A DNA stretch of 64,000 bases from Thioalkalivibrio sp. ALJ3 (GTDB lineage: Bacteria > Pseudomonadota > Gammaproteobacteria > Ectothiorhodospirales > Ectothiorhodospiraceae), in NCBI RefSeq assembly GCF_000377205.1, contig NZ_KB897908.1:124001-188000 (forward strand), written 5' to 3'. Positions 33,619 through 56,840 of this stretch are shown here, piece after piece. The translations under genes were made by a program, and so were the position numbers. The notes below the pieces were generated by a model that ran no database searches, was not told the DNA's origin, and worked only from the letters and a program-made list of their open reading frames with translations. Every line of letters starts with the position of its first letter. The stretch's first letter is position 1.

Positions 33619-33693
33619 GGGCGGTTAGCTCAGCGGTAGAGCACTGCCTTCACACGGCAGGGGTCACTAGTTCGAACCTAGTACCGCCCACCA
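33619..33693 (+). tRNA. tRNA-Val (CAC), integration target
   Basis: A 75-base valine tRNA. Acceptor GGGCGGT pairs with ACCGCCC, CCA encoded. Anticodon loop TTCACAC, anticodon CAC at 33651-33653, T-arm CTAGTTCGAACCTAG. Its 3' part and terminator are repeated at 56739-56840, showing that an element integrated in it; this copy is the intact one. Confidence 0.95.
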
Positions 33694-33747
33694 GCATTAT
33701 CAAAGGGTTAGGTCCACGCGGGCCTAACCCTTTTTTGTTGGGGGTGC
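33646..33747 (+). repeat. Left island boundary repeat (att)
   Basis: 102 bases identical to 56739-56840 except one base (C33717 versus T56810). It begins in the tRNA-Val anticodon stem (GCCTTCACACGG), covers the 3' half of the tRNA and its terminator, and ends GGGGGTGC. This is the expected product of integrase-mediated insertion. Confidence 0.92.
33705..33736 (+). terminator. Terminator of tRNA-Val
   Basis: GGGTTAGG...CCTAACCC stem followed by TTTTTT. It is part of the integration repeat and is repeated at 56798-56829. Confidence 0.85.
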
Positions 33748-37420: not shown

Positions 37421-37700
37421 GTGTCTCCACGCTATACATTGTCGCATGATTGAGAAGGGTAGGTTGGAAAAAAATTTCCATGGCGCTGAAAGTATTGCAT
37501 TTTTGTATTGCATGCAGCGGCTAGCTCTGGGTGGCGTTTGAGGTCAACACAGTCATTGGAGTGCATACAACAGGGGCTGGATCGAGTAACCCAGTGAGGA
37601 AACGATAGGGCGGAGTTCGGGGGCGATCCGTTCGCACATGCGGTGCGGTGCTGCAACAATGTGGGTATCGGTAACCGGGTCACACACAGGGGAGCAGGGC

Positions 37701-39680
37701 TTGAACACGGAGAATCATTCGGAGACCGCCGCGTGGATCTGGACGGTGGCGGATCTGCTGCGGGGGGACTTCAAGCAGTCGCAGTACGGGCGGGTGATCC
37801 TGCCGTTCACGCTGCTGCGGCGGCTGGAGTGCGTGCTGGAGCCGACCAAGGACGGCGTGCTGGCTGCTGCAAAGGAGCACGAGAACAAGTCGGAGACGGT
37901 CCGCGAGCAATTCCTGCTGCGGCAAGCGGAGCAGCCGTTCTTCAATACCTCACCGCTGTCGCTCGCGAGTCTGTCGGATACGCAGACGGCCGAGGACCTG
38001 ATGAGCTACATCGAGTCCTTCAGCAAGGATGCGCGCGAGATCTTCGATCACTTCCACTTCGAGGACTTCGTCGAGCAGCTCGCCAGCAACAACCTGCTGT
38101 ACCAGGTGGTGCAGCGCTTCGCCGCCATCGACCTGCGCCCGGCGCGGCTGTCCAACTTCGGCATGGGGCTGGTGTTCGAGGAGTTGATCCGCAAGTTCGC
38201 GGAAAGCTCCAACGAGACCGCCGGGGAGCACTTCACCCCGCGTGACGTGGTGCACCTGACCACCTCGCTGGTGCTCACCGGGCAGGACCACAAGCTCCAG
38301 CCACACGGCATCGTCACTGTTTACGACCCGACCTGCGGCACCGGCGGCTTCCTGTCCGAGAGCGAGGAGTACATCCAGCAGATCAGCCAGGATGTCAGCG
38401 TGTCCCTGCACGGGCAGGAGCTGAACCCCGAGTCCTATGCGATCTGCAAGGCGGACATGCTGATCAAGGGCCAGAAGGTCGAGAACATCAAGCTCGGCAA
38501 CACCCTGTCCGACGACCAGCTCGAAGAACTGCGCGCCGACTACATGCTCGCCAACCCGCCGTTCGGCGTGGAGTGGAAGAAGGTCCAGAAGCAGGTGGTG
38601 GACGAGCACCAGCACAAGGGCTTCAACGGCCGTTTCGGCCCCGGCCTGCCGCGTGTATCCGACGGCTCTTTGCTGTTCCTGCTGCACCTGGTCAGCAAGA
38701 TGCGTGACCCGCGCAAGGGTGGCTCGCGCATCGGCATCATCCTCAATGGCTCTCCGCTGTTCACCGGTGGGGCCGGCAGCGGCGAGTCCGAGATCCGCCG
38801 CTACCTGCTGCAGCACGACATGGTGGAGGCCATCATCGGCCTGCCCACCGACATGTTCTACAATACCGGCATCGCCACCTACATCTGGGTGCTGAACAAC
38901 AACAAGCCGGCCGAGCGTCGGGGCCGCGTGCAGCTCATCGACGCCACCGAGCGCTACGCGAAGATGCGCAAGTCGCTCGGCTCCAAGCGCCAGTACATCG
39001 ACGACGCCAATATCGACGCCATCGTGCGCAGCTACGGCGCCTTCGAAGAGAGCGACAAGAGCAAGATCTTCCCGAACGAGGCCTTCGGCTACCGCCGCAT
39101 CACCGTCGAACGCCCACTGCGCCTGAATTTCCAGGCCAGCCCCGAGCGCATCGAACGCATGCTGGCCGAAAAGCCGATCCAGAAGCTGGACGAGACCACC
39201 CGCCTGGGTGTGCAGGCCGCCTGCGAGCGGCTGGACGCCGAGCGCACGTACACCAACCGCGAGGACTTCCTGACCGACCTGAAGGCCCAGTTGAAGGCGC
39301 TGGACGTAAAGCTGCCCGCCGCCGCGCTGAAAGCCGTGTGGAACGGCCTGAGCGAACGCGACCCGGAAGCCGACATCTGCACCGACAAGAAGGGTAATCC
39401 GGAACCGGACAGCGACCTGCGCGATACCGAGAACGTCCCGCTGGGCGAGGACGTGTTCGAGTACTTCGAGCGCGAGGTGAAGCCGCACGTCCCCGATGCG
39501 TGGATCGACGAGGACAAGCGCGACGAACAGGACGGTGAGATCGGCATCGTCGGCTTCGAGATCCCCTTCAACCGCCACTTCTACGTGTTCCAGCCCCCAC
39601 GTCCGCTGGAAGAGATCGACGCCGACCTGAAGGCCGTCACCACCCGCATCAAGCAGATGATCGAGGAGCTGTCAGCGTGA
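37701..39680 (+). CDS. hsdM: Type I restriction-modification DNA methylase subunit
   Basis: A 659-residue N6-adenine methyltransferase subunit. The TTG at 37701 is chosen: it gives the family N-terminus L(M)[13 protein letters not shown] followed by [16 protein letters not shown], and GGGGAGCAGGG lies just upstream; ATGs at 37638 and 37659 would add unmatched residues. Motif [10 protein letters not shown] (209-217), motif IV NPPF (285-288). It methylates the host sites and, with HsdS and HsdR, forms the restriction complex. Its stop overlaps the hsdS GTG. Confidence 0.93.
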
Positions 39681-41086
39681 GCTTCCCGAAGTATCCCGAG
39701 TACAAGGACTCCGGTGTCGAATGGCTGGGCGAGGTGCCGGCGCATTGGCAGATACGCAAATTCAGGCACGTCTTCCAAGAGAGTAGTGAAAAAATCGATG
39801 AAAAGCCCGTAGGCGTGATGCTATCTGTTTCGGGTTATCGAGGGGTGGAGGTTAAGCAGTACGAGGATGACAATAAACGCCGGACGCATGAAGAGTTAAT
39901 CGGCTACCGGATTGTTCGCCCGGGCCAGCTCGTTGTCAACACAATGTGGTTGAATTATGCAGGGTTGGGTGTTTCCGAATACGTAGGGCATGTAAGCCCC
40001 GCATATCGCAGCTATTGGATTCTGCCTGATCTTGAAAGTCGATTCGCTCATCATCTTATGAGAAGTCAGGCGTACGTTACGGGCTACACAAAATATTTGA
40101 CGGGAATTCGACCCAACTCGCTGCAGATGAGCCGCGATGATCTCTTGTCGTTGCCGGTATTGGTTCCAAGTGTGAGCGAGCAGCGGGTAATTGCCGCCTT
40201 CCTCGACCACGAGACTGGGAAGATCGATGCGCTGATCGAGGAGCAGCGGCGGCTGATCGAGCTGCTGAAGGAGAAGCGGCAGGCGGTGATTTCCCACGCC
40301 GTTACCAAGGGTCTCGACCCCAACGTGCCCATGAAGGATTCCGGCGTCGAATGGTTGGGCGAGGTTCCGGCTCAGTGGGACGTAGTAATGTTGCGTCGGG
40401 TCTTAGAAGGAATAGAGCAAGGCTGGAGTCCAGAGTGCCACAGCACGCCAGCAGAGAATGGCATGTGGGGGATCCTCAAGGCAGGGGCGGTGAATAACGG
40501 AGTTTATCGAGAAAGCGAGAACAAAGCCCTCCCTCACGCCCTACATCCGCGGCCAGATCTGGAGGTCTGCAGTGGGGACGTTCTGATGTGCCGCGCCAGC
40601 GGATCTACAGACCTCATTGGGTCGGTGGCCTATGTGGAATCTTCACGCGGAAATCTAATGCTATCGGATAAGCTCTTCCGATTGATCTTCAGTCTGAAGG
40701 TGTCGGCCAAGTTTGTCGCTCGAACATTGGGCAGCAACCCATTGCGTCGTCAGATTGAGCAATCGATCAACGGGGCTGAGGGTCTAGCTAATAACCTATC
40801 CCAAGCAACAATCAAGGGGCTATATATCACGGTGCCTCCGCTACACGAGCAGGACGAGATAGTCGGCCATATTGAACAACAAACGGGGCAGATCGAAGGA
40901 CTCTTGGATGCATCCAAAAATGCGGTTGATGTGTTGCAAGAGCGTCGTTCTTCCCTGATCTCTGCAGCGGTCACCGGCAAGATCGACGTGCGTGGTTGGG
41001 CGGGTGCTGCTGAGCAGGAGGAATCGGAGCTTGCAATGGTCGCGGAGGAGCAGGCCGGATACTCGGCGCAGGGAGGTGCGACGTGA
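39677..41086 (+). CDS. hsdS: Type I restriction-modification specificity subunit
   Basis: A 469-residue subunit with two target-recognition domains. Each half opens with [13 protein letters not shown](H/Q)W, and coiled-coil spacers [20 protein letters not shown] and [20 protein letters not shown] follow the TRDs. The sequence recognised cannot be read. GTG 39677 overlaps hsdM. Its stop overlaps a further GTG that opens the truncated GIY-YIG gene. Low-complexity acidic end ([14 protein letters not shown]) is unusual but harmless. Confidence 0.92.
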
Positions 41087-41238
41087 CACGGGGTCGGAGC
41101 TTCCGCCTCTTCCTGGTCGATGGCACCCCGCATGGGCTGTTGACGACCCAGATCATGAACTGGACTGGGCATGTGCTGATTCGTCCGCTTGGCAAGCTCT
41201 GCGAGCTAGTCCGGGGCAGGGGCCAGAAGTCTTTATGA
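41083..41238 (+). pseudogene. Truncated GIY-YIG nuclease gene (first 51 codons)
   Basis: GTG 41083 overlaps the hsdS stop. The 51 residues read [31 protein letters not shown] and IRPLGKLCELV, which match the N-terminus of the GIY-YIG proteins that often follow hsdS in type I operons (TRGRSIRLFLVDGTPNG type). The nuclease domain itself is absent: the frame ends TGA at 41236-41238, overlapping the ATG of the next gene. So the gene was cut by insertion or recombination; the remnant may still couple translation. Confidence 0.75.
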
Positions 41239-41888
41239 GCGAAGGTAATCAATTCACCCTTCTGATTGGATCTTGCGCGCGCGGAACATCCACGTTTGAA
41301 TCCGACATTGATGTCGTTCGTATTGGCCATCGGCGCGCAGCAGATGTCAGCGTGATTCCTGAAGTAGCCGATGTCCTTGGACCATTAAGTTACGTGGATT
41401 ACGATCAGGCGACATTCTTCAGGCTTTACCACAAGGGTTCACTTTTTATAAAGCATATCCTGTCCGAGGGCAGGCTCCTAGGGGGATCTAAAAGTGCATG
41501 GTCTCTACTCCAACGATCGTTTCATGTTCAAGAAGATTTCACCCAAGAGATCGAGTCGCAGCTCGAGCTCTACCGCTGGCTAAGAGATCCATCGCAGTTC
41601 GAAGGTGCTGAGTATGCGCTGCTATCATATACCTTCCGTGCATTAAAGAATTTAGGGGTGTTCTCTATGGCGCAGCAAGGGCGATATATTTTTGAAAAAC
41701 GAGAAGTTCTCGAAGCGTTTCTCCCCCAGCTCCCCGAGGAGGATATAGACTTACTTATTCGAGTGAATCGAATCTTTGAACGGCACCTCGAACCGAGTGA
41801 AATCTCTCCAGAATTATTAACGTTCGCCCCCCTTCTGGATTTTTTCGATCGGATTGACCGCACGCTCAATGAAAGGATCATGATGTGA
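41235..41888 (+). CDS. Minimal nucleotidyltransferase (polymerase-beta superfamily)
   Basis: A 217-residue protein. LLIGSCARGTSTFESDIDVV gives G12-S13 and the two catalytic Asp24 and Asp26; a third acid may be Asp55 in LSYVDYD. This is the MNT-type core that in other systems adenylylates proteins or RNA. The C-terminal two thirds is helical. ATG 41235 overlaps the truncated GIY-YIG stop (ATGA). Its DNA is AT-richer than hsdM/hsdR. Followed by two overlapping genes of unknown role. Not a HEPN/MNT pair by sequence; the partner is unknown. Confidence 0.78.
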   Translation: MSEGNQFTLLIGSCARGTSTFESDIDVVRIGHRRAADVSVIPEVADVLGPLSYVDYDQATFFRLYHKGSLFIKHILSEGRLLGGSKSAWSLLQRSFHVQEDFTQEIESQLELYRWLRDPSQFEGAEYALLSYTFRALKNLGVFSMAQQGRYIFEKREVLEAFLPQLPEEDIDLLIRVNRIFERHLEPSEISPELLTFAPLLDFFDRIDRTLNERIMM

Positions 41889-42238
41889 TCAAGGACAAAA
41901 TACGTCGCGAGATTGAAAGAGCAATTTCCGATCCGGAAGTGTACGTAAAGGGTCATGATCTTGGGCGCTTGCGCGTTGCCTTCGACGGAATGTGCTCGCA
42001 AATTTGTCACCAGGTAACAGGTTCCACCCCTCATAATCGCATGATGTTAAGAAGGCGATTGAACAAGTTTATTGAAGAGAATCCGGATCATGAGAACGTC
42101 GGGCTAGTTCAAACGGTGAACGCGGCTCTTCGGGAGAGCGAAAATACACTCTTTAGAAAGGACTACGTGGATCATTCGGAATCCATTGAACGGTTCATTT
42201 CGGAATTCCTAACCGATGTGCTTCGAGCTTTGTCGTGA
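41885..42238 (+). CDS. Unknown small protein of the inserted module
   Basis: A 117-residue charged protein without recognised domain and without TM segments; helical throughout (RREIERAISDPEVYV..., RRRLNKFIEENPD, IERFISEFLTDVLRAL). GTG 41885 overlaps the nucleotidyltransferase stop and its own stop overlaps the start of the next gene, so the three are one operon. It may be an adaptor or substrate of the nucleotidyltransferase; this is inference from position. Confidence 0.65.
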   Translation: MIKDKIRREIERAISDPEVYVKGHDLGRLRVAFDGMCSQICHQVTGSTPHNRMMLRRRLNKFIEENPDHENVGLVQTVNAALRESENTLFRKDYVDHSESIERFISEFLTDVLRALS

Positions 42239-42678
42239 TGGATAAGAGTGCGGATATCGCCTTGGCAGCTTGGAGTCAATACCAAGATCTAGTTCGCAAT
42301 TCGTCGGACGCGATTTGGAAGATTCGAGCGACATTCTACGCGATAGTGTCTGCGCTAATGAGTGCAGCATATGCAACAGAACAAGCGTTTATCTATATGT
42401 TAGTGCTTCTCGCGTCTCTGCTGTTCCTTATGCTTGAAGGGGGGCACAAAAGGATTGAGATTCAGTACATTCGAAAGTCTCTTGAAATAGAGAGAACGTT
42501 AACTGATATATTGGCCGGGGAGCCTGAGCCATTCCTTCCATCTGAGGGCATTAGCACGAAGTTGTCAACGCCTTCTTTGAAGGATTGGAGGGATTTATTT
42601 ATGCTCAAGAGGTATTTGTTTTGGTTGCCCTATGTTGTAGTAACCGTAATAGCGTCTCTTCTCTACCTATATGGCTAA
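42238..42678 (+). CDS. Three-helix membrane protein of the inserted module
   Basis: A 146-residue protein with hydrophobic segments at about 30-48, 50-68 and 125-145 (FYAIVSALMSAAYA, IYMLVLLASLLFLML, WLPYVVVTVIASLLYLY). An aromatic N-terminal stretch WSQYQDLVRNSSDAIWK precedes the first. Layout recalls small SLATT/RipA-like membrane proteins that act as effectors in some defence systems, but I see no definitive motif. GTG 42235 is an alternative start overlapping the previous stop. Confidence 0.65.
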   Translation: MDKSADIALAAWSQYQDLVRNSSDAIWKIRATFYAIVSALMSAAYATEQAFIYMLVLLASLLFLMLEGGHKRIEIQYIRKSLEIERTLTDILAGEPEPFLPSEGISTKLSTPSLKDWRDLFMLKRYLFWLPYVVVTVIASLLYLYG

Positions 42679-42934
42679 CGGGATCCTTCTAGTTCAAGCA
42701 TCCTGGATAACGGCATGGTAGCCGTAGCCCTTCGCTTCCGTAGAGGCCGTGGTTGTTGAGCGTCATTGGTGTTGCTGCCATCGAGACTGGGACGGTGGAG
42801 AAGGGGCGGTTGGCTCGATGAACGGATATACCCTTGTCGATTGGGCAGCGGGCGCGGTGGCGTGTTTGCCATAATCGGCCGGGGCTAGGGCTCAGCTACC
42901 CGAATGAAAACCAAGCTATGGTGTGAGGAAGCCA

Positions 42935-45900
42935 ATGGCGGACAGCAGGGAAGCGCAGTTTCAGCAGGACATCATCGATGCGATGACCGCCGATGGCTGG
43001 CTGACCGGTCCGGCAGGCGGGTATGACGCCGCGAATGCGCTGTACATCGAGGATCTGGTCGCCTATCTGCGGGACGCTTGGCCGCAGCGCTGGGAGAAGT
43101 TCGCTGCAAAGAACCCGCAGGATCCGCAGAAGGCCCTGGTGCGCGCGGTCACCCGAGAGCTGGAGCGCGACGGCACGCTGGAAGTGCTGCGCCACGGGGT
43201 GAAGACCCCGGGGGTGAAGCTGGAGCTGTGCAGCTTCAAGCCCGATCACGAGATGAACCCCGAGTCCCTGGCGCGCTACCGCGCCAACCGCCTGCGGGTG
43301 GTGCCGGAGGTCTCGTACTCGCCGCATGCGCGTAGCGGCGAGTACAACCCGCGGCTGGACCTGGTGCTGTTCGTCAACGGCATCCCCACCGCCACGCTGG
43401 AGCTGAAGAGCGAATTCAAGCAGTCGGTGGAGAACGCCAAGCGCCAGTACCGGCGCGACCGCCCGCTGAAGGACCCGGTCACCCGCAAGCCGGAACCGCT
43501 GTTGACCTTTAAGCGCGGCGCGCTCGTGCACTTTGCGGTCAGCCAGGACCAGGTGGCGATGACCACGCGCCTGAACGGCAAGGACACCTTCTTTCTGCCC
43601 TTCAACCTGGGCACGGAAGACGGTGGGTCCGGCAATCCCGCACCCCCGGACGCAGACAGCTACGCCACCGGTTACCTGTGGCAGCGCGTGTTCCAGCCGG
43701 ATGCCTGGCTCCGGATCATCGGCCGCTTCCTGCACCTGGAGCATAAGACCGAGGAGGACTTCCACGGCAAGCGCCGCAAGAAGGAGGCGTTGATCTTCCC
43801 GCGCTTTCACCAGTGGGACGTGGTGAACCGCCTGATCGAAGCCACGCGCGAGGAAGGGGCCGGGCGGCGCTACCTGATCCAGCACAGCGCTGGCTCCGGC
43901 AAGTCCAACTCCATCGCCTGGATCGCGCACCAGCTCGCCGCGCTGTACGACGAGGTAGGCGGCAAGCTGTTCAACTCCGTGGTGGTGGTCACTGATCGCA
44001 CGGTGCTGGACGACCAGCTCCAGGACACCATCTACCAGTTCGATCATGCGCACGGCGTGGTGCGGCCGATCACCCGCGATGTCGGTAGCCAGAGCAAGTC
44101 GGAGCAACTGGCCGAGGCGCTGGCCGAGCAGACCCGCATTATCATCGTGACCATTCAGACCTTCCCGGCGCTGTTCGACGCCCTGGACAAGCGCCCGGAC
44201 CTGGCTGCCGGGCGCTACGCGGTGATCGCCGACGAGGCGCATTCCTCGCAGACCGGCTCCTCCGCCACCAAGCTGAAGGCGATTCTCGGAACGGACAAGC
44301 CGGAAGACGAGGAGATCAGCGCCGAAGAGCTGCTGGACGCGGCCGTGGCCGCGCGCAAGCCCGCCGAGCGCATCAGCTACTACGCCTTCACCGCCACCCC
44401 CAAGGCGAAGACCCTGGAGCTGTTCGGCCGCCCGCCCGACCCGGATCTGCCGCCCTCGGCGGACAACAAGCCCGAGCCCTTCCATCTGTACTCCATGCGC
44501 CAGGCGATCGAGGAAGGCTTCATCCTCGACGTGCTGAAGAACTACACCACGTACTCCACGGCTTGGAAGCTGGCGCACCCGCACGCCGACGAGCAGGAGG
44601 TGGAGTCGCGCAAGGCCTCGACCAAGATCGCCCGCTGGGTACGCCTGCACCCGTACAACATCTCGCAGAGGGTGGAGGTGATCGTCGAGCACTTCCGCGC
44701 TAACGTGCGCCACCTGCTGGACGGCCAGGCCAAGGCGATGGTGGTGACCGGCAGCCGCCAGGAGGCCGTGCGCTACGCGCTGGCCATGCGCGCGTACATC
44801 CAGGGCAAGGGCTACACCGACGTGCACGCGCTGGTCGCCTTCTCCGGCTCCGTCCTGCCGGACGAGGTGATCCCCGAGGAGGTGACCGAGACCAGCTCGC
44901 TGCTGAACCCGGGGCTGAAGGGCCGCGACCTGGCCGAAGCGTTCAAGACCGACGAATACAACGTGATGATCGTCGCCAACAAGTTCCAGACCGGGTTCGA
45001 CCAGCCTAAGCTCTGCGCCATGTACGTGGACAAGAAGCTGCAGGGCGTGGAGTGCGTGCAGACCCTCTCGCGCCTGAACCGCACCTTTCCGGGCAAGGAG
45101 GCGACCTTTGTCCTCGACTTCTTCAATGACGCCGAAGACATCCTCGAGGCCTTCCGCCCGTACTACAACAAGGCCGAGCTGGCCGACGTCTCCGACCACC
45201 AGATCGTCTACGACCTGCAGAAGAGCCTGGACGCCGCCGGGATCTACCACTGGGACGAGGTGGAGAACTTCGCCCGCGCCTTCTTTGATCCGAAGGCCGG
45301 CGCCAGCCAGCTCAGTTACTACTGCCAGCCCGCGAAGGAGCGCTACCACACCCGCTACAAGGCGGTGCTGGAGCAGATCCAGACCTGGAAGGCCGCCCAC
45401 GCCGAAGCCGAGCGCAACAATAATAAGGCCGGCCTGCACCGCGCCGAACAGGAGCTGAAGGACGCCCACACCACCCGCGACGAGCTCGACTTGTTCCGCA
45501 AGAACCTGCAGAGCTTCGTGCGCAGCTACGAGTTCCTGTCACAGATCGTCGACTTCGAAGACCGCGAGCTGGAACAGCTCAACGTCTACGCCCGCGCCCT
45601 GCACCCGCTGCTGCGCATCGAAAACATCGAAGAAGACGCCATCGACGTCGACGAGCTGGAGCTGACCCACTACCGCCTGAACAAGCGTGCTGAACAGCGC
45701 CTGAGCCTCGCCGAGGACGGCGCCGACTACGACGGCCTCAAACCTGTCTCCGACGTCGGCTCCGGCAAGCCCCACGACCCGGAAAAGAAACGCCTCTCCG
45801 AGATCATCGACCAGCTCAACGAATTGTTTGGCGCCGAAGTGAGCGACGAAGACAAGCTCCAGTTCGCCAACGGCATCGCCGACCGCATCCGCCGCGACGA

Positions 45901-46129
45901 CGCCGTGATGGCCCAGGTCGAGAATCACAGCCCCGACCAAGTGATGCACGGCCTGTTCCCCAAGCGCGTCACCGACACCGTCCTCGACGCCATGACCGAC
46001 CACGAAAAACTTTCCATGCAGGTCCTCGACGACCCGGAGCGCCAACGCGACTTCGCCCTGCTGATCCTGCGCCTGCTGACCGCCGGGGCAGGCGACCAAC
46101 GCTCGACACCCACGAGGCCCGCTCCATGA
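42935..46129 (+). CDS. hsdR: Type I restriction enzyme endonuclease subunit
   Basis: A 1064-residue nuclease-translocase. N-terminal PD-(D/E)XK nuclease with Asp142 and Glu156-x-Lys158 (LELKSE); helicase P-loop SAGSGKS (Gly320-Ser324); DEAH at 433-436 (IADEAHSS); motif III TATP; motif VI near QTLSRLNRTFPGK. It restricts unmodified DNA after translocation. ATG 42935 with GAGGAAG upstream is preferred over 42923. Separated from the membrane gene by 256 bases, unlike the tight spacing elsewhere, as expected if a module was inserted. Confidence 0.93.
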   Translation: MADSREAQFQQDIIDAMTADGWLTGPAGGYDAANALYIEDLVAYLRDAWPQRWEKFAAKNPQDPQKALVRAVTRELERDGTLEVLRHGVKTPGVKLELCSFKPDHEMNPESLARYRANRLRVVPEVSYSPHARSGEYNPRLDLVLFVNGIPTATLELKSEFKQSVENAKRQYRRDRPLKDPVTRKPEPLLTFKRGALVHFAVSQDQVAMTTRLNGKDTFFLPFNLGTEDGGSGNPAPPDADSYATGYLWQRVFQPDAWLRIIGRFLHLEHKTEEDFHGKRRKKEALIFPRFHQWDVVNRLIEATREEGAGRRYLIQHSAGSGKSNSIAWIAHQLAALYDEVGGKLFNSVVVVTDRTVLDDQLQDTIYQFDHAHGVVRPITRDVGSQSKSEQLAEALAEQTRIIIVTIQTFPALFDALDKRPDLAAGRYAVIADEAHSSQTGSSATKLKAILGTDKPEDEEISAEELLDAAVAARKPAERISYYAFTATPKAKTLELFGRPPDPDLPPSADNKPEPFHLYSMRQAIEEGFILDVLKNYTTYSTAWKLAHPHADEQEVESRKASTKIARWVRLHPYNISQRVEVIVEHFRANVRHLLDGQAKAMVVTGSRQEAVRYALAMRAYIQGKGYTDVHALVAFSGSVLPDEVIPEEVTETSSLLNPGLKGRDLAEAFKTDEYNVMIVANKFQTGFDQPKLCAMYVDKKLQGVECVQTLSRLNRTFPGKEATFVLDFFNDAEDILEAFRPYYNKAELADVSDHQIVYDLQKSLDAAGIYHWDEVENFARAFFDPKAGASQLSYYCQPAKERYHTRYKAVLEQIQTWKAAHAEAERNNNKAGLHRAEQELKDAHTTRDELDLFRKNLQSFVRSYEFLSQIVDFEDRELEQLNVYARALHPLLRIENIEEDAIDVDELELTHYRLNKRAEQRLSLAEDGADYDGLKPVSDVGSGKPHDPEKKRLSEIIDQLNELFGAEVSDEDKLQFANGIADRIRRDDAVMAQVENHSPDQVMHGLFPKRVTDTVLDAMTDHEKLSMQVLDDPERQRDFALLILRLLTAGAGDQRSTPTRPAP

Positions 46130-46761: not shown

Positions 46762-46782
46762 GTTGTCATAGAGGGTTCGGCG

Positions 46783-47394: not shown

Positions 47395-47407
47395 CTAAAG
47401 GACGAGC

Positions 47408-47724: not shown

Positions 47725-47740
47725 CGAATAAGGAGTGCCC

Positions 47741-48247
47741 ATGGTTATAGTGGTGCAGATCGCTGGCTATGTTGTGTTGCTTGTGGTGACCACCACGCTC
47801 GGCTTCATGGGAAAGCCCGCCGAAATGGGCTTGGCGATTATCGCTGGTGCAATCGCGCTGGCATTTTCTGATCTCGACAAATTCAGCCGTATCAAAGGCG
47901 CGGGGTTTGAGGCGGAACTGCGCGAAAAATTCAAGAAGGTAGAAGCAGTCATAGAGAAGGAAACCGAGCCACTGGCGTCTGGCGAGGAGCGCAAGCCAGT
48001 GCCGGATGTATCGCGTATCGATGCCGCCACCCGGTCAGTTGTTAACGCTTTGCACCACCCGGACTACACGTGGCGCTATTTTGGCGGTATAAAGAAGGAT
48101 ACAGGGCTGTCCTCCGAGGAAGTCCGCCGTGCACTCGACTGGCTGGTAGAGAACGGCTACGCCCAACGAACCCTGGGCAGTAAGGGAGCGGTTTGGAACC
48201 TCACTGATGAAGGAAGATACCTAAGTGCGGTCATTGATTTCACATAG
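47741..48247 (+). CDS. Membrane-anchored winged-helix-like protein, cassette gene 4
   Basis: A 168-residue protein. Two N-terminal hydrophobic segments (QIAGYVVLLVVTTTLGFM and GLAIIAGAIALAF) are followed by a charged coiled stretch (LREKFKKVEAVIEKETE) and a C-terminal winged-helix-like domain (DYTWRYFGGIKKDTGLSSEEV ... NGYAQRTLGSKGAVWNLTDEG). ATG 47741 has AAGGAG six bases upstream; GTG 47735 is in frame. Function unknown; the fold suggests a membrane sensor with nucleic-acid or protein-binding tail. Confidence 0.65.
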   Translation: MVIVVQIAGYVVLLVVTTTLGFMGKPAEMGLAIIAGAIALAFSDLDKFSRIKGAGFEAELREKFKKVEAVIEKETEPLASGEERKPVPDVSRIDAATRSVVNALHHPDYTWRYFGGIKKDTGLSSEEVRRALDWLVENGYAQRTLGSKGAVWNLTDEGRYLSAVIDFT

Positions 48248-48306
48248 CATAATAGGCCGCTCAACTGAACGATCCTGTCGTCGCGCCGGTCAGCGGCGCG
48301 TTATAC
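48247..48306 (+). repeat. attC site 4
   Basis: R'' GCATAAT (48247-48253) and R' GTTATAC (48300-48306) with internal arms GCCGCT (near 48256-48262) and AGCGGC (near 48292-48297). 60 bases, typical small attC length. L-box extra base less clear than in sites 1 and 2. Confidence 0.7.
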
Positions 48307-48320
48307 GTGAAGGCTAAGTG

Positions 48321-48875
48321 ATGCTTGATGGTTTAGATCCAATGCAGCTCGCAAAGAGGCTTGAATATCAACATGGGTGTGACCATGAACGTCACCAAAA
48401 ATGGGCCGACGCAGCATTTAAGTTAATGAGCTCGGATCCATGGGTGATGATGACAATTCAAAGTCTAGGCGTACTCGATTCGAAGCTGATAAAGGAAGAT
48501 GAATATATACTGGGAAACAAACGTTCTAGCAGCCCGGCGGGAGACTTGAACGAGCAAATAACCATGTCCTATTTGTGGGTGTTGGGAGCGTATGAGGTTG
48601 TTCGCACCCTTGATCAGAGAGCCCGAGAAAATCGCAGCAGCGAAGACGAAACTAGGAAAAGTCTTCAGCAACTAAAAAGGAAGTTCGAACGTATTCGCAT
48701 GCCCTTGGCAAAATTGGAGGCAGCTAGAAGGTACAAGGATACTGATCGGCAGTTCGCATTTCCTGGAATAAACACTGATTACGGAACGGTTTGGCATGTA
48801 GGGGAGAACGTTTGGATCACTCGCCGTGAATTATCCGATTCTATGCTTGAGTTAATGGAAAAATATGAAGTGTAA
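48321..48875 (+). CDS. Unknown protein, cassette gene 5
   Basis: A 184-residue soluble protein I do not recognise. It has a helical core (NEQITMSYLWVLGAYEVVRTL, RKSLQQLKRKFERIRMPLAKLEA) and an aromatic end (YGTVWHVGENVWITRREL). No TM segments. GTG 48318 is in frame just upstream. It sits between attC4 and attC5, so it is a cassette gene. Function unknown. Confidence 0.65.
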   Translation: MLDGLDPMQLAKRLEYQHGCDHERHQKWADAAFKLMSSDPWVMMTIQSLGVLDSKLIKEDEYILGNKRSSSPAGDLNEQITMSYLWVLGAYEVVRTLDQRARENRSSEDETRKSLQQLKRKFERIRMPLAKLEAARRYKDTDRQFAFPGINTDYGTVWHVGENVWITRRELSDSMLELMEKYEV

Positions 48876-49033: not shown

Positions 49034-52000
49034 CTACGCTAATCTGAGCTGGATCCAGTCGGGGACTCCGTCCTGAAACATGGGTTCGACTTGTTCGCGG
49101 GTCGGCGCTTCAAGGGTCCGGTAATGCTGTTGCTTCCAAACTCCGTCTTCTAGGGTGTAGAGGGTGGTGAAAACGGTCCTACCGCCGAATGTCATTGATC
49201 CCATAGAACCGCCGTAGACGCCTTTTTCTCCAGCGATTACCCAGACGGCAGCGAGGTTCTGGTCCGCAAGAACGGACAGGAAAGCGGCTCGATCCACGAG
49301 GCCGGCATGGGGTCCTTTCTCCGAAAGAGAGGGATCCCAGAATCGCACGAATCCACCATCGTCGACGTACGTCGCGGCTTTGCCGTCAGAGAGGTGAAGC
49401 CCCATGTGGTCGCAAAGCCAAGGAGCGGGGATGGCGACTCGAATCGTGTTGTCGAGTGAATAGTCAAAGTCACCCTGCGCACAGGTGTAGGTGCCTGCCG
49501 TTGCTCGCGTGGGGTAGGGCAGGGCGGGATAGGTCTCTGTTTCAAACCAATCGGGAAGATCTTCCAGAACGGGATGCCATGGGTATTCGCCGAAATATGT
49601 CTGGTGCCCTGACACGTCGAGGGAAGGAACCGCGCGAGGGTCGATAAGGGATTGGTGCTTGAGCGCTTCCAACGCAGCCGGTAGGTCGTCGCGAGGTACA
49701 ACGAAGCAGGAAATACGGGACGATGTTTCCCGTTGAAGGCTGTCCCCTCCAGACGACCACTCGCGGACTGACAGAAAATTTTGCAGGGTTAACCAGCGGC
49801 GGTCGTCGGGATCGGTGAGGTCGAGGCACTGGCTGTCGTCGATGAAGCCATCATCGCCATACATCCAGATAAATCGTTCTTCGGTCGTTGTCGACTCAAG
49901 CCGTGGCAGGATGGGTGCCCACCATGTCGGCTCCGGAAAGGTCGTCCAGCCGTCGTCATACGACCGCCTGATCAGGAGAGACGGGTCTAGATCCCGGAGC
50001 GTGCCGAAACACTCCCCGTCGTACGGCGCGGGTTCCTTCGCCCCCCAGCGGTCACCGATGAAAGCGCGGTTGTCGGCCAGGCGGGCGCCGAGTTCGTAGA
50101 GTGCCATCCATTGGTACTTTTTGCCGATTCGTTCAATGGCATTGGACCTTCGGTCGCGGCTCGGCAGCCTCCCCGAATCGAAATCATTGTGGAGCTCCTC
50201 CGACCAGCCAAGGTCGTGTGCTCGCATGCAGACCCAGCGACGCGCCCAAGACAGGTTGAAAATGGCGAGTTCTCGGCTCGCCGAGCCATTGAACATGCCG
50301 TCGGCCCACCATTCGCCAGCTCGGGTGCGATAGTCCTCCCATTGTTCGGAGGACAGCGCCTCCTGGAACCGCTTCAGAGCCAAGTCGTAGGCTTCACGTT
50401 CGGGAGTCTTGTCCCGGCGTGAGAGATTGTCTAGCGCCTTTCTGCACTTCAAAACGTCCGAATAGCGTTCCTGGGTGTCCACATTCGCGAAGCAATCGAA
50501 ATCAGATTTCCATTCCTTGGCAATATCCTGCGGTGACGGGAGGCGTTTCACGCCAATCGGGGCTGCGCTCCAGTGCGAGATGTAGGGGTCGATGATGTAG
50601 CGCGCGAAGTCGCCGTCCTTAACGGTAGACCTGACAATGTCATCTGTGAGGGTCGCGCCGCTGGGATAGGTGGCAGTGTATCCCTCGATGATGTCATCGG
50701 GGACAATCTCCAGGGGCCAGGGGCTTTGGTAGGGTGGCCGTACCTTGGCGATGTCCACGCTCTCGGGGCAGCCGCCTTGTGAAAGCGCATACTCCACGAG
50801 CCATCGACCATGATCGCGGAGCAACGTGTTGGGCGGAGGCGCGCCATCGGCAAACAGGCGCATGTATACCTCCGTCGTGAGGCCCTCAAGCTCCTCACGG
50901 TTCAGGAATCCCTGTAAGGTGCCTCCATAGATCGCGGCAAGAAGGCGTTCCCGAAGGTAGTCGTCATCGACCGCCCAGAATCGCTCCAGCAGTCGGTGCA
51001 TCAGCCACCCGCGCGGCGCGAAGAGGGTTGCCAGGGCCTTGGTCGCTCTGTCCCGAAGGGGGCGGTGGGATGTCGTGAGGAACCAAGTCAGCGCCACGCT
51101 GGCTAGTTCGGCCCGCCGGTCCTCTATCTGCCCAAAACCACCGGTCCAGACCCAGTCGACCAAAGTCCAGTAGGCCGCTTCGTCGTCCCTAGCGTGTTCG
51201 GCCACGGGAATAGACCAGAATGCATCCCGCTCCGGCATCGGCAAGCTTTGGAGCTTTTCGTCAAGGAAGTCGGCGTTGAACTCGTTGTCAGGCTCAGTGG
51301 CGATGCGCAGGAGGATATCCATCGTCCCGCCAAGCCCAAAAATCTCCTGGACAAGGTCGAGGGTCCGGCGCGTGAATGTGCGTTGGTCTCGCCAGAGGAG
51401 GCTTTCCTCGAAGGCATGCGATAGTGGCCACATGTGCGCGTCTGGAGCGAAGTCCATGATTTCCCGTCCATAGCGCTCGGGCAACTGAACCGCGAGCGCT
51501 TCCACAACGCCCGCCATGCGCCAGGATGGCTCCCCTGCGAGATAGGCATGCAAGGGGCCGCCTTCGGAAAAAGCCGCCGTAGGGTCATCGCCCTCAACAT
51601 ACCTGTCCAGTAGTGAGGCAGCGATCATGTGGTCGCTGAAGCGTTGGAAGGTGAAGCGAACGACGTGGTCATTGTCGGCGTTGTCGCCTTGGACTTCGGC
51701 CGACAGCAGGCCTTCGCTAGTCAGTTCTTCCAAAAGCTCGCCGCGAAGGCCGCCGTTTGTTGTCTGGATGTGGTCCAGACTCGTGAGGGTCTCCTCCATT
51801 GGCAGATAGTCGCTCAGTCTGTCTGCCATTCTCTTGGCCAAGGCATCGACCGCCTTTTGCACGACCCTCCTGTGAGTTGAGAGCCCGAGGCGCCCATCCA
51901 CCTGTCGGCTGACCGCCTCCAAATAGAACTTGAAGATATTGGTGGCGCCATGCAGGCCCTTCGGGAATTCCTGGACGCCATCCCGTTCCAACGTGTCGCA

Positions 52001-53566
52001 GCAGGTCCGCAGGAAGAGGGGGTTGGAAAACTCTGGGGCGGGCACCGGGGTGCCTGGCAGGACGAACCCGCGCGCTTTCAGGTACGCCCGGGCGTCCTCG
52101 GGCCTGAATCCAGGATGTTCCAGGCGGGGGAGCCTGTCTTCGTCCAGTGTGTCTGGAAGAACGCGGGACAAGAATGTCGTCCGGCACGACAGGACTACCG
52201 CAAGATGCGGGTAACCCTGGACCTTGTGGAGGAGCCCAGCCAAGCGGTCCGGCCACAAGTCTAGCCCGTGCTTTTCGTTCAAGGCGTCGATGATGAGCAA
52301 CCCCCGGACACCGGCCCCTTCCGCTGCCGCATCAAGGGCACCTAGGAAGTCGTCTGTCGTTGTCCCGGTCGGGAGATCGAGTCCCCCAATAATCTGGGGC
52401 CACGGATCGCCATCGGTGAAGTGCTGGCCGAGCAATAGGACAGCGGGCCGGCCCTTATCGATCTGGTATTGTGCGACGTCGGCCAAGAGGTGGGACTTGC
52501 CGACGCCGCCTTCACCTGTGATGACGACGGCTCGATCATCCACGTGCTGCCACAGGGGATCGTTCAGTGCCTCCGCGATTGTTTCTAGCCGGTTTTCAAG
52601 CTCGGAGAGCCAATACCGGGCTTTGTTCTGCGTCTCCTCATCGCCGCCGGCCGTGCACCCGTGATCCATCCACCAACGGAAAGTCTGCGCGACAGCGTCC
52701 TTGGCTTTGGCCAGCCGACGCTTCCACTCAGGGATAGGGGAGGTTTCACAAGGCTCGGGCGGCCGGGCCTCAAGAGCGGTTTGTAATTCCTCAATTGCAC
52801 CGCTCAGATCGCAGGGCAGTGGAGCCTCCGCGTCCGGCTCAAGTTTGGTGCAGGTGCGGACAGCACCGGTGGCGAATCGTTGGAACCCCTTGGTCCACGT
52901 CTGGCGTTCCCGCCACAGGGCCGGATCGCGACTGAGCCCGAGAAGGGCACGGCGGATGGGTAGGTCGACATGGCTCTCTGCCGTGTAGCGGTTCCCCAAG
53001 TCCGCTAGTGCCGTTATCAGCTTCGCCTTGCACCAGTCAGATGAAAGCAGTTGCTTGTTGAACCAGAACAGGATGCGACCGGTGCCGAGTGCGCCACTCC
53101 GCGTCAGGCGTTCCTTGATGGTGCTTGCCGACCATAAGTCGATCACGAGGGTGCGCCCCTCGGCTTGCGCCTGAGCCTCCCGTTTTTCTTTCCAGGTTCT
53201 CCACTTTCCGATGGCGCCGGGATCTTCTGAGCCACCAGGATTCGAAAGATCAAATGGGATGCAGACGATGAAGGTGGTGAGGTATGGATGCCGCTGAAGC
53301 GCTGAATCAAGAGAGTCGCTGAGGGAGCGTGTGAGGTTGGCGTCCATCTTCCAGAAATACTTTGCCTGCCATCCGCACTCGGTGCCGTCCGGTCGGCGGA
53401 AGAAGCATTCTAGCCCGGCGTCTCGCCCCCGACCTTTGCGGTAGAAGACCGAGTCGTCGGGCCGAGGGTCCAGGGCCGCGAGTTGGCAACATAGTTCCTC
53501 GAAGGCTCGGTCGCGAGAACCCTCGTGTTCTCGGATCTGCTCGAATTGTATGTCGGGCAAAGCCAT
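49034..53566 (-). CDS. Giant STAND NTPase with N-terminal Mrr-like nuclease (Avs-like)
   Basis: A 1510-residue protein with the plan of Avs (AVAST) antiphage proteins: N-terminal Mrr-type nuclease domain (FEELCCQLA, RGRDAGLE with Asp49, GWQAKYF with Gln67-x-Lys69), then a central STAND NTPase (Walker A ITGEGGVGKSHLL with Lys357, Walker B LLIIDALNE with Asp427), then about 900 residues of helical repeat sensor. By architecture Avs2/Avs4-like proteins are closest; they detect phage terminase or portal and cut DNA. The start at 53566 gives the natural N-terminus MALPDIQFEQIRE; the frame extends to 53611. It stands alone on the minus strand. Confidence 0.8.
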   Translation of the reverse strand: MALPDIQFEQIREHEGSRDRAFEELCCQLAALDPRPDDSVFYRKGRGRDAGLECFFRRPDGTECGWQAKYFWKMDANLTRSLSDSLDSALQRHPYLTTFIVCIPFDLSNPGGSEDPGAIGKWRTWKEKREAQAQAEGRTLVIDLWSASTIKERLTRSGALGTGRILFWFNKQLLSSDWCKAKLITALADLGNRYTAESHVDLPIRRALLGLSRDPALWRERQTWTKGFQRFATGAVRTCTKLEPDAEAPLPCDLSGAIEELQTALEARPPEPCETSPIPEWKRRLAKAKDAVAQTFRWWMDHGCTAGGDEETQNKARYWLSELENRLETIAEALNDPLWQHVDDRAVVITGEGGVGKSHLLADVAQYQIDKGRPAVLLLGQHFTDGDPWPQIIGGLDLPTGTTTDDFLGALDAAAEGAGVRGLLIIDALNEKHGLDLWPDRLAGLLHKVQGYPHLAVVLSCRTTFLSRVLPDTLDEDRLPRLEHPGFRPEDARAYLKARGFVLPGTPVPAPEFSNPLFLRTCCDTLERDGVQEFPKGLHGATNIFKFYLEAVSRQVDGRLGLSTHRRVVQKAVDALAKRMADRLSDYLPMEETLTSLDHIQTTNGGLRGELLEELTSEGLLSAEVQGDNADNDHVVRFTFQRFSDHMIAASLLDRYVEGDDPTAAFSEGGPLHAYLAGEPSWRMAGVVEALAVQLPERYGREIMDFAPDAHMWPLSHAFEESLLWRDQRTFTRRTLDLVQEIFGLGGTMDILLRIATEPDNEFNADFLDEKLQSLPMPERDAFWSIPVAEHARDDEAAYWTLVDWVWTGGFGQIEDRRAELASVALTWFLTTSHRPLRDRATKALATLFAPRGWLMHRLLERFWAVDDDYLRERLLAAIYGGTLQGFLNREELEGLTTEVYMRLFADGAPPPNTLLRDHGRWLVEYALSQGGCPESVDIAKVRPPYQSPWPLEIVPDDIIEGYTATYPSGATLTDDIVRSTVKDGDFARYIIDPYISHWSAAPIGVKRLPSPQDIAKEWKSDFDCFANVDTQERYSDVLKCRKALDNLSRRDKTPEREAYDLALKRFQEALSSEQWEDYRTRAGEWWADGMFNGSASRELAIFNLSWARRWVCMRAHDLGWSEELHNDFDSGRLPSRDRRSNAIERIGKKYQWMALYELGARLADNRAFIGDRWGAKEPAPYDGECFGTLRDLDPSLLIRRSYDDGWTTFPEPTWWAPILPRLESTTTEERFIWMYGDDGFIDDSQCLDLTDPDDRRWLTLQNFLSVREWSSGGDSLQRETSSRISCFVVPRDDLPAALEALKHQSLIDPRAVPSLDVSGHQTYFGEYPWHPVLEDLPDWFETETYPALPYPTRATAGTYTCAQGDFDYSLDNTIRVAIPAPWLCDHMGLHLSDGKAATYVDDGGFVRFWDPSLSEKGPHAGLVDRAAFLSVLADQNLAAVWVIAGEKGVYGGSMGSMTFGGRTVFTTLYTLEDGVWKQQHYRTLEAPTREQVEPMFQDGVPDWIQLRLA

Positions 53567-53779
53567 CAGGGCATTCCGGTTGCTGGTTAGGCGCCAACAT
53601 CCTAGGCGCACGGGGTATTGCTGCCAAGCAACACGGCATGTGTTCTTGCATCACTCGTTGGGTGGCTAACGCGGCAGGCGCACCTCGCTCAACGTCTGCT
53701 TCCTGATCGTACGTCAGGCACCGAGGCGAAGGTGGGGAACCAAACGGCGTCTACGCCGTGGTGATGGGAAGATTAATGA

Positions 53780-53953
53780 CTGGCCCCAGCCAGGCTTTAA
53801 TCGCGCAGCCGCCCCAGCGGCAGAGCCCGTGAGGCTGTAGGCGCGCCCACGCGCCGAAAAGTCTGTGAGCCCCGAGGCGAACAGACGTGCCGAGAAGGGC
53901 CTAGTCGGCGCCCCCGGCGACTAGGAACCCCTTGTCGCCCCAGCGACAAGGGG
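53780..53953 (+). other. Array of hairpins with CCCA loops
   Basis: Stems with the same CCCA loop: CTGGC/GCCAG (53780-53793), GCCGC/GCGGC (53808-53821), GGCGCG/CGCGCC (53840-53855) and the 11-base stem CCCCTTGTCGC/GCGACAAGGGG (53928-53953). GTCTGT/ACAGAC (53861-53886) and CCTAGTCG/CGACTAGG (53900-53925) lie between. The pattern recurs too regularly to be by chance. Confidence 0.65.
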
Positions 53954-53984
53954 TGGTCCTGGCCGCCCCCGGCGACCTTGTGGT

Positions 53985-54077
53985 CGGCGGGAAACCTCAA
54001 AGAGTCGAATGAGCCACCGGGCGAGTGATGACCGGAGTCGTCCCGCTGCGCGGGGCGAGATTTGAGGTTTCCCGCCG
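53985..54077. repeat. 17-base perfect inverted repeat
   Basis: CGGCGGGAAACCTCAAA at 53985-54001 and its exact complement at 54061-54077, 59 bases apart. Such spaced arms suggest a protein-binding or DNA-structure site, perhaps for the island's replication or transfer; role inferred. Confidence 0.65.
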
Positions 54078-54319
54078 GGAGCAAAGCGGAGGCGGGGGCG
54101 GGGCAAGGCCCGTCGCGTTCAGCGGCGGGGTGCGCAGGGCCTTGCGTCCAGCGAGGCCCGTAGTGGCAAGGCGATGGCGTTCAGCCAGCGCCGCGCAGAG
54201 CGCCCGAATGGGCGTTCGAAGTTGTGTCACGCGCGAAGGGGTGTGACCGGTGGCAGCAAGCGTAGGGGTGTCACAGGGCCGCGCACATGGGGGTGTAAGC
54301 CAAAACAGGAGCACTCCCA

Positions 54320-55240
54320 ATGAAAGTGCCTAATGAGATCCTCTTCGATAACGCGCCGGTTCCGTCACCCAAAGAGTCGCATCTACAGGCGGAATCGGTC
54401 CTTTACTCACCCGAAACGGGCGGGCGCCAGCAGGTTGGGCCGAGCCAAGAAAAGGCACCCGACGGTCGCGTGACGGGCACGCACAACGAGTTGCTGTTGC
54501 TGCATGCGATTGAGCGCCTCGGGCATTCGACGAGCTGGCAACTCTCGATGATGAGTCGGCTTTCTCGCCGGTCCGTACAGCGTGTTTTGAAACGGCTTCA
54601 GGACCGAAGGATGGTCTCGATGAAGCGACTTCCAGACGGCGATCCAGTGTATGTGATGCGTCAGGCCGGGGCTTCCGAACTGAGCCTTCACCTCGGGCGT
54701 GAGGTGAGGCGGACAAACGACGATGCGAGCTTCATCAAGAGTCGTTTGTGGCGCCACCGGAAGCTGGCGAATGACACGGCGTGTGAGCTCTCCCAACGCC
54801 ACCCCGTTCTTACAGAGCGCGAGATCCAGGCAGGACGGAACCCGGCTGGGCGTCGCGACATCCTGCCGGGGAAGGTGCCAGACCTGATGTTCAAAACCTC
54901 TGATGGTTGGACGTGGGTCGAAGTCGAACGGGCGTGGAAGAAGCGGCGAGAGTACCGAAGGCTCATCCATACCGTTGAAATGATCACGAAGCCCAAACTC
55001 GAGCGGAGGCCGGGTCCGATGCTTGCTGGCGATGCAATTTCTTCGATCGTTTTTCTGGTGAGCGATGAGCTCGAGGCACGGCGGCACATCACGCGTTTTT
55101 CGAAGCACTACAATCTCCAGGCTGGGTATGACATACCGGACCATCTCATTGCCTATTTTCGCTCGGTAGGAGTCATGTGGTGGGAGAGGCGCTACCTCCG
55201 TTTTGATGATGCCGCGACCTTATTCTATAGCTACTGTTGA
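54320..55240 (+). CDS. Replication-relaxation-like protein of the island
   Basis: A 306-residue protein. A wHTH at about residues 55-110 (LLLLHAIERLGHSTSWQL ... RRSVQRVLKRLQDRRMVSMKRL) is followed by a PD-(D/E)XK-like segment KVPDLMF (Asp188) and WVEVERAWKKRREY (Glu201-x-Glu203). This is the layout of replication-relaxation proteins of integrative elements. It lies just right of the structured hairpin region, a possible target. A strong terminator follows. Confidence 0.68.
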   Translation: MKVPNEILFDNAPVPSPKESHLQAESVLYSPETGGRQQVGPSQEKAPDGRVTGTHNELLLLHAIERLGHSTSWQLSMMSRLSRRSVQRVLKRLQDRRMVSMKRLPDGDPVYVMRQAGASELSLHLGREVRRTNDDASFIKSRLWRHRKLANDTACELSQRHPVLTEREIQAGRNPAGRRDILPGKVPDLMFKTSDGWTWVEVERAWKKRREYRRLIHTVEMITKPKLERRPGPMLAGDAISSIVFLVSDELEARRHITRFSKHYNLQAGYDIPDHLIAYFRSVGVMWWERRYLRFDDAATLFYSYC

Positions 55241-55374: not shown

Positions 55375-56583
55375 TTAGGCCGTATCAAGTAGCTGGACAG
55401 CGGCGGCCTTCTGCTTGGGTGCCAGGTGGGCGTAGCGAAGGGTTTGCTTGATGTCGGAATGACCAAGGAGCTCGCGGACTGTATTAAGGTCTACCGCATG
55501 CATGACCAACTTTGAAGCGAATGTATGCCGTAAATCGTGGAACCGGATGTCTGGCAATCCGGCTCGATTCTTCAGGCGTTTCCACGACGACTTGAGGTCT
55601 TTCATAGGTTGTCCGTCGCTTCCGGGGAATACATACGGAGACGGCTTACCTCTTCCTGCCCACGAAGAGAACACTCGAGAAGCCTCCGCATTGAGCGGGA
55701 CGTGTCTGGTCATAGCGGACTTCGCATTTGCCCCATCGACCGTCAGGATGTTCCGGTCAAGGTCGACATTGTTCCATCGGAGCTGTAAGAGCTCGCCGCG
55801 CCGGAGTCCTGTATTCAACGCAAGGAGCACCAGGGGGGTGAGATGGTCTGGGGGGCGATTCGGAGAAATTTCGGTTTTCTCCGGCTTTCGCCGTTCCCGT
55901 CGCCATAGATTCATTGAGGATCTCTTCCGGCGGGCTAGCTCATCACGTTCTTCGAGAGCGAGCCGAAGGCGTTTCTCCTCGGCCTCACCCAGGTAACGCG
56001 GTTCACGGTTGTTGTCGGTGCGGAGGGCTTTCAGTGTCGGGATCGGGTAATGCTCTAGGTATTGCCACTCTTCAGCGCGTCGTAGAGCGGCTTTGAGGTC
56101 GTTGAGCTCACGGTTGATCGTGCTCGCTTTTTTGCCTTCCCGAAGTCGTTGCTCTCTGATTTTCTCGATGTCGTGAATCGAGATCGAGGAAAGCTGCCTG
56201 TCCCATAGCGTGCCGAAAACCGAACTCAATCGCTTGACGGTGGCCTGGCCGGTACGGTTGCGTGCCACGAGCCACGGTCCATATGTTTCTCGGATGAAGT
56301 GACCGAAAGTCATAACGTCCGATCGGAGTTTCTTGCTTCGTGGATCCTTCCCCAATGCGGCCTCGCTGAGGATCCGAGTGGCTTCCTCTCGTGCTTGAGC
56401 TGGTGTCAGGTGTGCTGAAGAGCCGATGGTGATCGCACGGCCGCGAGCATACTGCGCTCGATAGGAGTGACGGCCGTTAGGTCGAAAGCGCAGGATGAAT
56501 CCAGGCAGGTCGGTGTCATAGATATCGACTTCCGATTCAGAGGAGAAGGTATTAAGGAGGGACTTCGTGATCTTCTTTTTCAT
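55375..56583 (-). CDS. Tyrosine-family site-specific integrase
   Basis: A 402-residue phage-type integrase. Arm-binding N-terminus (LPGFILRFRPNGRHSYRAQYA), SAM-like core domain and catalytic domain: Arg261 (GLRRGE), Lys288, His349/Arg352 (HDLRHT), His375 (LGHSD), Tyr384 (RYAHL). It inserts the island into tRNA-Val; its ATG lies 155 bases from the right repeat. Two GGGGTGCA words sit just upstream and a matching pair sits at the left boundary. Confidence 0.93.
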   Translation of the reverse strand: MKKKITKSLLNTFSSESEVDIYDTDLPGFILRFRPNGRHSYRAQYARGRAITIGSSAHLTPAQAREEATRILSEAALGKDPRSKKLRSDVMTFGHFIRETYGPWLVARNRTGQATVKRLSSVFGTLWDRQLSSISIHDIEKIREQRLREGKKASTINRELNDLKAALRRAEEWQYLEHYPIPTLKALRTDNNREPRYLGEAEEKRLRLALEERDELARRKRSSMNLWRRERRKPEKTEISPNRPPDHLTPLVLLALNTGLRRGELLQLRWNNVDLDRNILTVDGANAKSAMTRHVPLNAEASRVFSSWAGRGKPSPYVFPGSDGQPMKDLKSSWKRLKNRAGLPDIRFHDLRHTFASKLVMHAVDLNTVRELLGHSDIKQTLRYAHLAPKQKAAAVQLLDTA

Positions 56584-56738: not shown

Positions 56739-56840
56739 GCCTTCACACGGCAGGGGTCACTAGTTCGAACCTAGTACCGCCCACCAGCATTATCAAAGGG
56801 TTAGGTCCATGCGGGCCTAACCCTTTTTTGTTGGGGGTGC
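56739..56840 (+). repeat. Right island boundary repeat (att)
   Basis: Copy of 33646-33747 (one mismatch). It contains the 3' half of tRNA-Val with CCA, but no 5' half precedes it, so it is a remnant, and a terminator (56798-56829). The last codons and stop of the sigma factor gene to the right lie in it on the minus strand. Confidence 0.92.

Follow-up and report, generated by a model that had tools for sequence, protein, structure and literature searches.

A one-strand array of fixed-loop hairpins beside a MOBC-type relaxase gene, a probable mobilisation region of an integrative mobilizable element in Thioalkalivibrio

The 64,000-nt stretch of Thioalkalivibrio sp. ALJ3 analysed here (hereafter, the window) raises the question of what a run of hairpins sharing the loop CCCA is for, a run in which a sequence-only reading had seen selection on folding and, as options, a replication or transfer origin, a structured RNA or a decoy target. 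The run belongs to a ~23-kb element sitting in a tRNA-Val gene, whose att direct repeats extend at least over the positions given in Table 1. The segment between them was taken as an integrated element because of the tRNA-Val direct repeat and the tyrosine integrase gene; an integrase gene and att repeats flanking the segment at a tRNA gene are the features of an integrative mobilizable element (IME). No T4SS domain was found among those element genes searched, which were part of the ORFs. Type I restriction-modification genes and an Avs2 gene are carried as cargo, and the space between them (46317-48875) holds small genes, one with DUF1889 (E 1e-11) and the others without significant Pfam matches. 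Elsewhere in the window, on the minus strand, a tRNA-Ser(CGA) and then a borderline match to RtT RNA (46.3 bits, cut-off 45) were found at 61566-61696 and 61750-61839. The hairpin array itself lies at the integrase end of the element, within a 708-bp non-coding stretch (53612-54319) from Avs2 to a Replic_Relax (PF13814) gene, which agrees with the replication-relaxation-like and divergent Avs-like neighbours proposed from the letters of the sequence.

CCCA-loop hairpins with stems of at least 5 bp numbered four in the whole window, all within 53780-53954, out of 98 hairpins with four-base loops, none of which had the reverse loop TGGG. The four stems described beforehand are therefore real, and the lengths of 5, 5 and 6 bp were borne out, while the last one has 12 bp and not 11. 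The extent assigned to them (53780-53953) does contain hairpins but is too short, as the folded region continues past 53954 to ~54217, with a total of ~450 bases. The DNA fold of 53770-53960 reached -65.2 kcal/mol vs. -35.2 ± 3.2 in shuffles (z -9.3), and the z values for 53765-54225 were -10.3 (DNA, plus strand), -6.5 (DNA, minus strand) and -7.5 (RNA, plus strand). Moreover, dinucleotide shuffles of 53700-54320 gave a mean of 0.006 CCCA hairpins, compared to the four seen. The long-stem region (53985..54077) bears the motif GCGGGNAA, found again in relatives. Thus, as in an oriT, a non-coding region adjoining a relaxase gene presents both inverted and direct repeats.

Table 1. Positions of the features of the element and of its hairpin array in the window
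Feature	Position	Strand	Detail
attL-like copy, 3' half of tRNA-Val(CAC) gene 33619-33693	33646..33698	+	direct repeat with at least 56739-56791
Type I restriction-modification genes, cargo	37638..46129	+	M 37638-39680, S 39677-41086, R 42923-46129
Avs2 gene, cargo, divergent from array	49034..53611	-	PADLOC Avs2 E 0
Hairpin 1, loop CCCA	53771..53802	+	inner perfect 5-bp stem 53780-53793; extended 14-nt arms 86% paired
Hairpin 2, GCCGC-CCCA-GCGGC, 5 bp	53808..53821	+	
Hairpin AGCC-CGTGA-GGCT	53824..53836	+	read from sequence; present in DNA fold
Hairpin 3, GGCGCG-CCCA-CGCGCC, 6 bp	53840..53855	+	T. halophilus: GGCACGC-CCCA-GCGTGCC
Hairpin 4, GTCTGT...ACAGAC, inner GCC-CCGA-GGC	53861..53886	+	
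Hairpin 5, CCTAGTCGgCG-CCCC-CGgCGACTAGG	53900..53925	+	
Hairpin 6, loop CCCA, perfect 12-bp stem	53927..53954	+	
Perfect 17-bp stem CGGCGGGAAACCTCAAA / TTTGAGGTTTCCCGCCG	53985-54001 / 54061-54077	+	encloses hairpin 54038-54058
GTTCA-loop hairpin CCCGTCGC-GTTCA-GCGGCGGG	54109..54129	+	
GTCCA-loop hairpin GGGCCTTGC-GTCCA-GCGAGGCCC	54137..54159	+	
GTTCA-loop hairpin GGCG-a-TGGC-GTTCA-GCCA-g-CGCC	54170..54192	+	sequence, fold
GAAT-loop hairpin	54198..54217	+	T. halophilus: GAAA
GGGGTGTSAC imperfect direct repeats	54217..54300	+	14-nt family at 54217, 54234, 54261; further GGGGGTGTAAG near 54290
Replic_Relax / MOBC-type relaxase gene	54320..55240	+	PF13814 E 5e-6, 27.2 bits vs. curated cut-off 25.3
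Tyrosine integrase gene	55375..56583	-	PF00589 E 6e-34; Arm-DNA-bind_3 5e-10
attR-like copy of tRNA-Val 3' half, right end of element	56739..56798	+	direct repeat

The family PF13814 is called MobC by CONJscan (PMC5357655), and MOBC relaxases, whose types are CloDF13 MobC and pAD1 TraX, are PD-(D/E)XK enzymes (PMC12857230). In the protein of the window, a putative PD...ExE nuclease motif comprises E166, K185, PD188 and W199-x-E201-x-E203, with E...PD...ExE invariant over seven relatives. The comparison of its profile with a CloDF13-type MobC by hhalign gave an E-value of 2.8e-6, PD...EVE being common to both. At the N-terminus, residues 43-128 of the structure model matched a MarR-type winged HTH (Z 13.7); this model (pLDDT 73.8) was built from two sequences and supports the winged helix only, the nuclease half matching nothing in the structure search. 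Likewise, a PDB profile search with the relaxase returned wHTH regulators only.

A DNA search of 96 related genomes yielded one full homologue of the array, in Thioalkalivibrio halophilus (72% identity over 490 bp), likewise upstream of a relaxase gene, whose product is 52% identical to that of the window. There, hairpin 4 is GCCCGGTCGCG-CCCA-CGCGACCGGGC, with three two-sided changes with respect to the window, and hairpin 5 is GGCAGTCGCG-CCCA-CGCGACTGCC, its stem altered and its loop CCCA. Over eight hand-aligned helices, 44 pairs were unchanged, 11 had two-sided changes and 3 one-sided changes, and 2 were broken. On contig 97 of T. halophilus HL17 (3333 bp; L010/L011), a TrfA/RepC-like replication gene was found beside the array and the relaxase gene, from which it appears that a replicating plasmid also carries the array. 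Plasmid DNA and protein searches with the array and relaxase of the window gave no match, and T. halophilus was the sole match of the relaxase among genome and viral contigs.

More distant relaxases, 26-30% identical to that of the window, were found in four genomes (G038, G094, G268 and G307), in which the upstream DNA is no longer alignable and the hairpins keep the CCCA and GTYCA loops. The CCCA hairpins came first, followed by the long stem, in which several of them carry GCGGGNAA, then by the GTYCA hairpins and the relaxase gene; integrase and tRNA genes adjoined as in the window. Inside the array of G038, ARAGORN called a tRNA-Gly (L035 10948-11039, minus strand), a call that is probably spurious and due to the hairpins. 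When 399 genomes were searched with a relaxase profile, eight more loci were found, with such hairpins in six of them (L038, L039, L040, L041, L043 and L045) and no array in the other two (L042 and L044). In T. halophilus and at ten more loci from other gammaproteobacteria, the array adjoins a MOBC-type relaxase gene, and this pairing is found in tRNA-inserted elements.

The distant loci have a common core formed by GGGGGAGCC, stem P1, inner hairpins, P1' and GGGGGCGNAGCCCC. A two-anchor pattern run on the 399 genomes, which demanded one triloop-type hairpin per locus but did not impose the GNA sequence on it or call for CCYA/GTYCA loops, recovered six known loci and gave new ones (L054, L059, L062, L063, L064, L065 and L069), with CCYA and GTYCA hairpins around the core and none on the opposite strand. 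As the pattern alone is unspecific (a reversed control matches too), a locus was counted as an array only when loop hairpins were present. A PF13814 gene lies downstream in L063 (E 2.7e-7), and some pattern-found arrays adjoin winged-helix genes without a PF13814 match; the neighbour gene of L054 combines a PD...EVE motif with a winged helix (hhalign E 6e-4, probability 29%), and that of L064 shows a weak resemblance to a winged helix only. In L071 (G487:C181), the core is interrupted by an apparent transposase gene soon after the GGGGGCGAAGCCCC hairpin. Furthermore, cores with CCCA hairpins were seen in two IMG/VR contigs classed as viral (L072 14432-14527 and L074 14333-14409), which are likely to be mobilizable elements or prophage edges.

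No such array was found in the firmicute MOBC plasmid pAM373 or upstream of a relaxase-like gene of Variovorax. In Thauera pTha01 (L030 1800-2320), a 1-kb gap before a Replic_Relax-like gene has GGGGGCGNAGCCCC hairpins and a long stem, without CCYA/GTYCA loops, possibly as a diverged form of the array. With the array absent from pAM373 and Variovorax and only similar hairpins in Thauera, it is not required by MOBC relaxases generally and therefore belongs to a proteobacterial branch of MOBC systems.

The folding is conserved on one strand, with covarying stems and fixed loops. Over 20 arrays and stems of at least 4 bp, CCYA hairpins numbered 40 on the array strand and none on the opposite one (shuffle mean 0.57), GTYCA hairpins 34 and none (0.12) and C-GNA-G triloops 42 and one (2.4). 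In the same arrays, GNRA loops appeared 8 times on the array strand and twice on the opposite one (shuffle mean 2.7), and UNCG loops 0 and 2 times (0.9). An unbiased census of 13 arrays (stems of at least 5 bp) returned CCCA (18) and CCTA (5) as the top four-base loops, and GTCCA (13) and GTTCA (4) as the top five-base loops. In 268 kb of flanking sequence, loop hairpins of these types cluster at the arrays only, and the array strand outfolds its complement in 20 of the 20 arrays, RNA parameters included. Since the MAFFT alignment of the cores misplaces stems, the arms were paired by script and their partners dealt between loci. For stem P1 in 19 loci, 145 of 171 positions were paired vs. 108.4 ± 4.8 with dealt arms (0/20,000), a figure that is conservative because bulges were disallowed. 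Selection on folding is thus upheld, the stems of relatives changing while their loops stay. When the check put forward with that claim was carried out, both base-pair covariation and homologues with retained loops were found, and the claim was not refuted.

In the plasmid CloDF13 (9,957 bp), prototype of the MOBC class, whose gene order is oriT-mobB-mobC (PMC2262945), all five CCYA/GTYCA hairpins (stems of at least 4 bp) lie at 9598-9855, on one strand and upstream of mobB. The array is therefore present in the CloDF13 oriT region, the oriT being placed by its position upstream of mobB. As in the window, CCCA loops precede GTCCA loops on one strand and the relaxase is of the same family: mobC is apparently frame-shifted in the CloDF13 record, and the intact MobC of a close relative, annotated as a MobC family replication-relaxation protein and typed as MOBC by MOB-suite, matched PF13814 at 1.7e-22. 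In contrast to the window element, in which no MobB was seen, CloDF13 is a plasmid with the coupling protein MobB, its hairpins are fewer and shorter, and its array points away from mobB/mobC, whereas the arrays of the IMEs are oriented with the relaxase gene. These hairpins may already be recorded as inverted repeats in the primary CloDF13 oriT paper; in the open-access literature, no title or abstract dealt with shared-loop hairpin arrays at MOBC oriTs.

Among the options first offered, a transfer origin has the strongest support, since MOBC-type relaxase genes go together with the array and the oriT region of CloDF13 contains it. The array is thus probably the cis-acting mobilisation region of a MOBC (Replic_Relax) IME, either the oriT or most of it. 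According to this reading, the integrase would excise the element and the relaxase would bind close to its own gene, plausibly through its winged helix at the GGGGTGTSAC direct repeats. These are candidate relaxase binding repeats by analogy with TraX of pAD1 (MOBC, Firmicutes), a relaxase with wHTH and PD-(D/E)XK parts whose binding sites are direct repeats distant from nic (PMC12857230). The direct repeats of the window lie between the array and the relaxase gene, while pAM373, a MOBC plasmid related to pAD1, differs from the window in having no hairpin array. The relaxase would then nick the DNA inside or beside the array, and strand displacement would leave the strand with the CCYA, GTYCA and C-GNA-G loops, presumably the transferred one, single-stranded and folded as a string of fixed-loop hairpins. 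The relaxase or partner proteins would recognise these hairpins, so that the relaxosome could be assembled or kept together and the transferred strand held, piloted or re-closed, with a helper element supplying the conjugation machine for transfer. By contrast, the decoy target proposed at the outset found no support, because Avs2 belongs to the cargo of the present element alone, and no such gene adjoins the CloDF13 array.

As regards the folding molecule, DNA is placed ahead of RNA, although not decisively. In favour of DNA, the motif C(GNA)G forms a miniloop that is hyperstable in DNA. Mini-hairpins of extraordinary stability have been described (PMC10527192). Mispairs in generic stems were uninformative as a DNA/RNA test, G.T and A.C amounting to 40 and 44, with no difference. 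A structured non-coding RNA of ~450 nt, another of the options first offered, is somewhat unlikely as the product of the array; it would serve mobilisation or play some different role in the element, with its fixed loops binding a protein repeatedly. The strand-specific fold, with its RNA z value and the better array strand under RNA parameters in every array, is compatible with this, as are the RNA-like G.T at pair 3 of P1 in 13 of 19 loci and possible terminators at the array end in L040 and L038. Moreover, Salmonella Genomic Island 1 (SGI1) requires a self-encoded RNA adjoining its oriT (PMC9299015); this sgm-sRNA resembles the window array as a structured element beside the oriT and mobilisation genes of an IME (PMC9299015), but it is an RNA, and the SGI1 relaxase is unrelated and tyrosine-recombinase-like. 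Against an RNA, no Rfam 15 family reached its gathering score in the array of the window or those of 18 further loci, nor did relaxed thresholds give a convincing match for the arrays; terminators (2 on the plus vs. 1 on the minus strand in 20 arrays) showed no general signal, and a promoter scan found none before the array in the window. The lack of UNCG loops on the array strand, the few GNRA loops, the equal generic mispairs and the different orientation relative to the relaxase gene in CloDF13 argue in the same direction.

Single-strand promoters (Frpo) act in plasmid leading regions. It is quite improbable that the folded strand is a start signal of this sort, that is, a primase landing site or an Frpo-like promoter from which the recipient would begin synthesis of the complementary strand or early expression. 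The confinement of the fixed-loop hairpins to one strand would suit it, and IME arrays point to the relaxase gene, the next one downstream; in addition, leading regions, first in as single strands, house early-acting genes (PMC11541004). However, none of the hairpins was identified as promoter-like, one promoter would not need so many near-equivalent ones, and the CloDF13 array points away from the mob genes. Finally, it is highly improbable that the array does no more than regulate the relaxase gene (or Avs2) as an untranslated leader or attenuator, or that it arose by chance from the high G+C content of the DNA. In the window and in 11 other loci found by the relaxase, it does immediately precede the start codon of that gene, but in CloDF13, L054 and L064 the neighbour gene does not follow it in the same orientation, and chance is refuted by the excess over shuffles and by covarying arrays in other elements that keep their loops across families.

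Returning to the mobilisation region, attC sites and single-strand promoter or primase hairpins (Frpo, ssi) function by the folding of one specific strand. These have one or two hairpins, whereas the window array has ~8-10 with a fixed loop vocabulary. How MOBC systems pilot and re-close the strand is an open question because their relaxases are restriction-enzyme-like and no covalent relaxase-DNA intermediate has been observed (TraX; PMC12857230). Tentatively, and as an idea that we consider unlikely as it stands, the array might be a noncovalent handle: its one-strand hairpins with three fixed loop types would offer relaxosome proteins a shape by which to hold the transferred strand, first in the donor and later in the recipient. 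In any case, a conserved strand-specific array in oriT regions is a concrete candidate for strand piloting or re-closing in MOBC systems, and it is testable by mutation. Moreover, CCYA, GTYCA and C-GNA-G hairpins with the GGGGGAGCC...GGGGGCGNAGCCCC core provide a signature for mobilizable elements, which also reaches elements, among them defence islands like the present one with Avs2 and type I restriction-modification, that relaxase similarity by itself hardly reveals.
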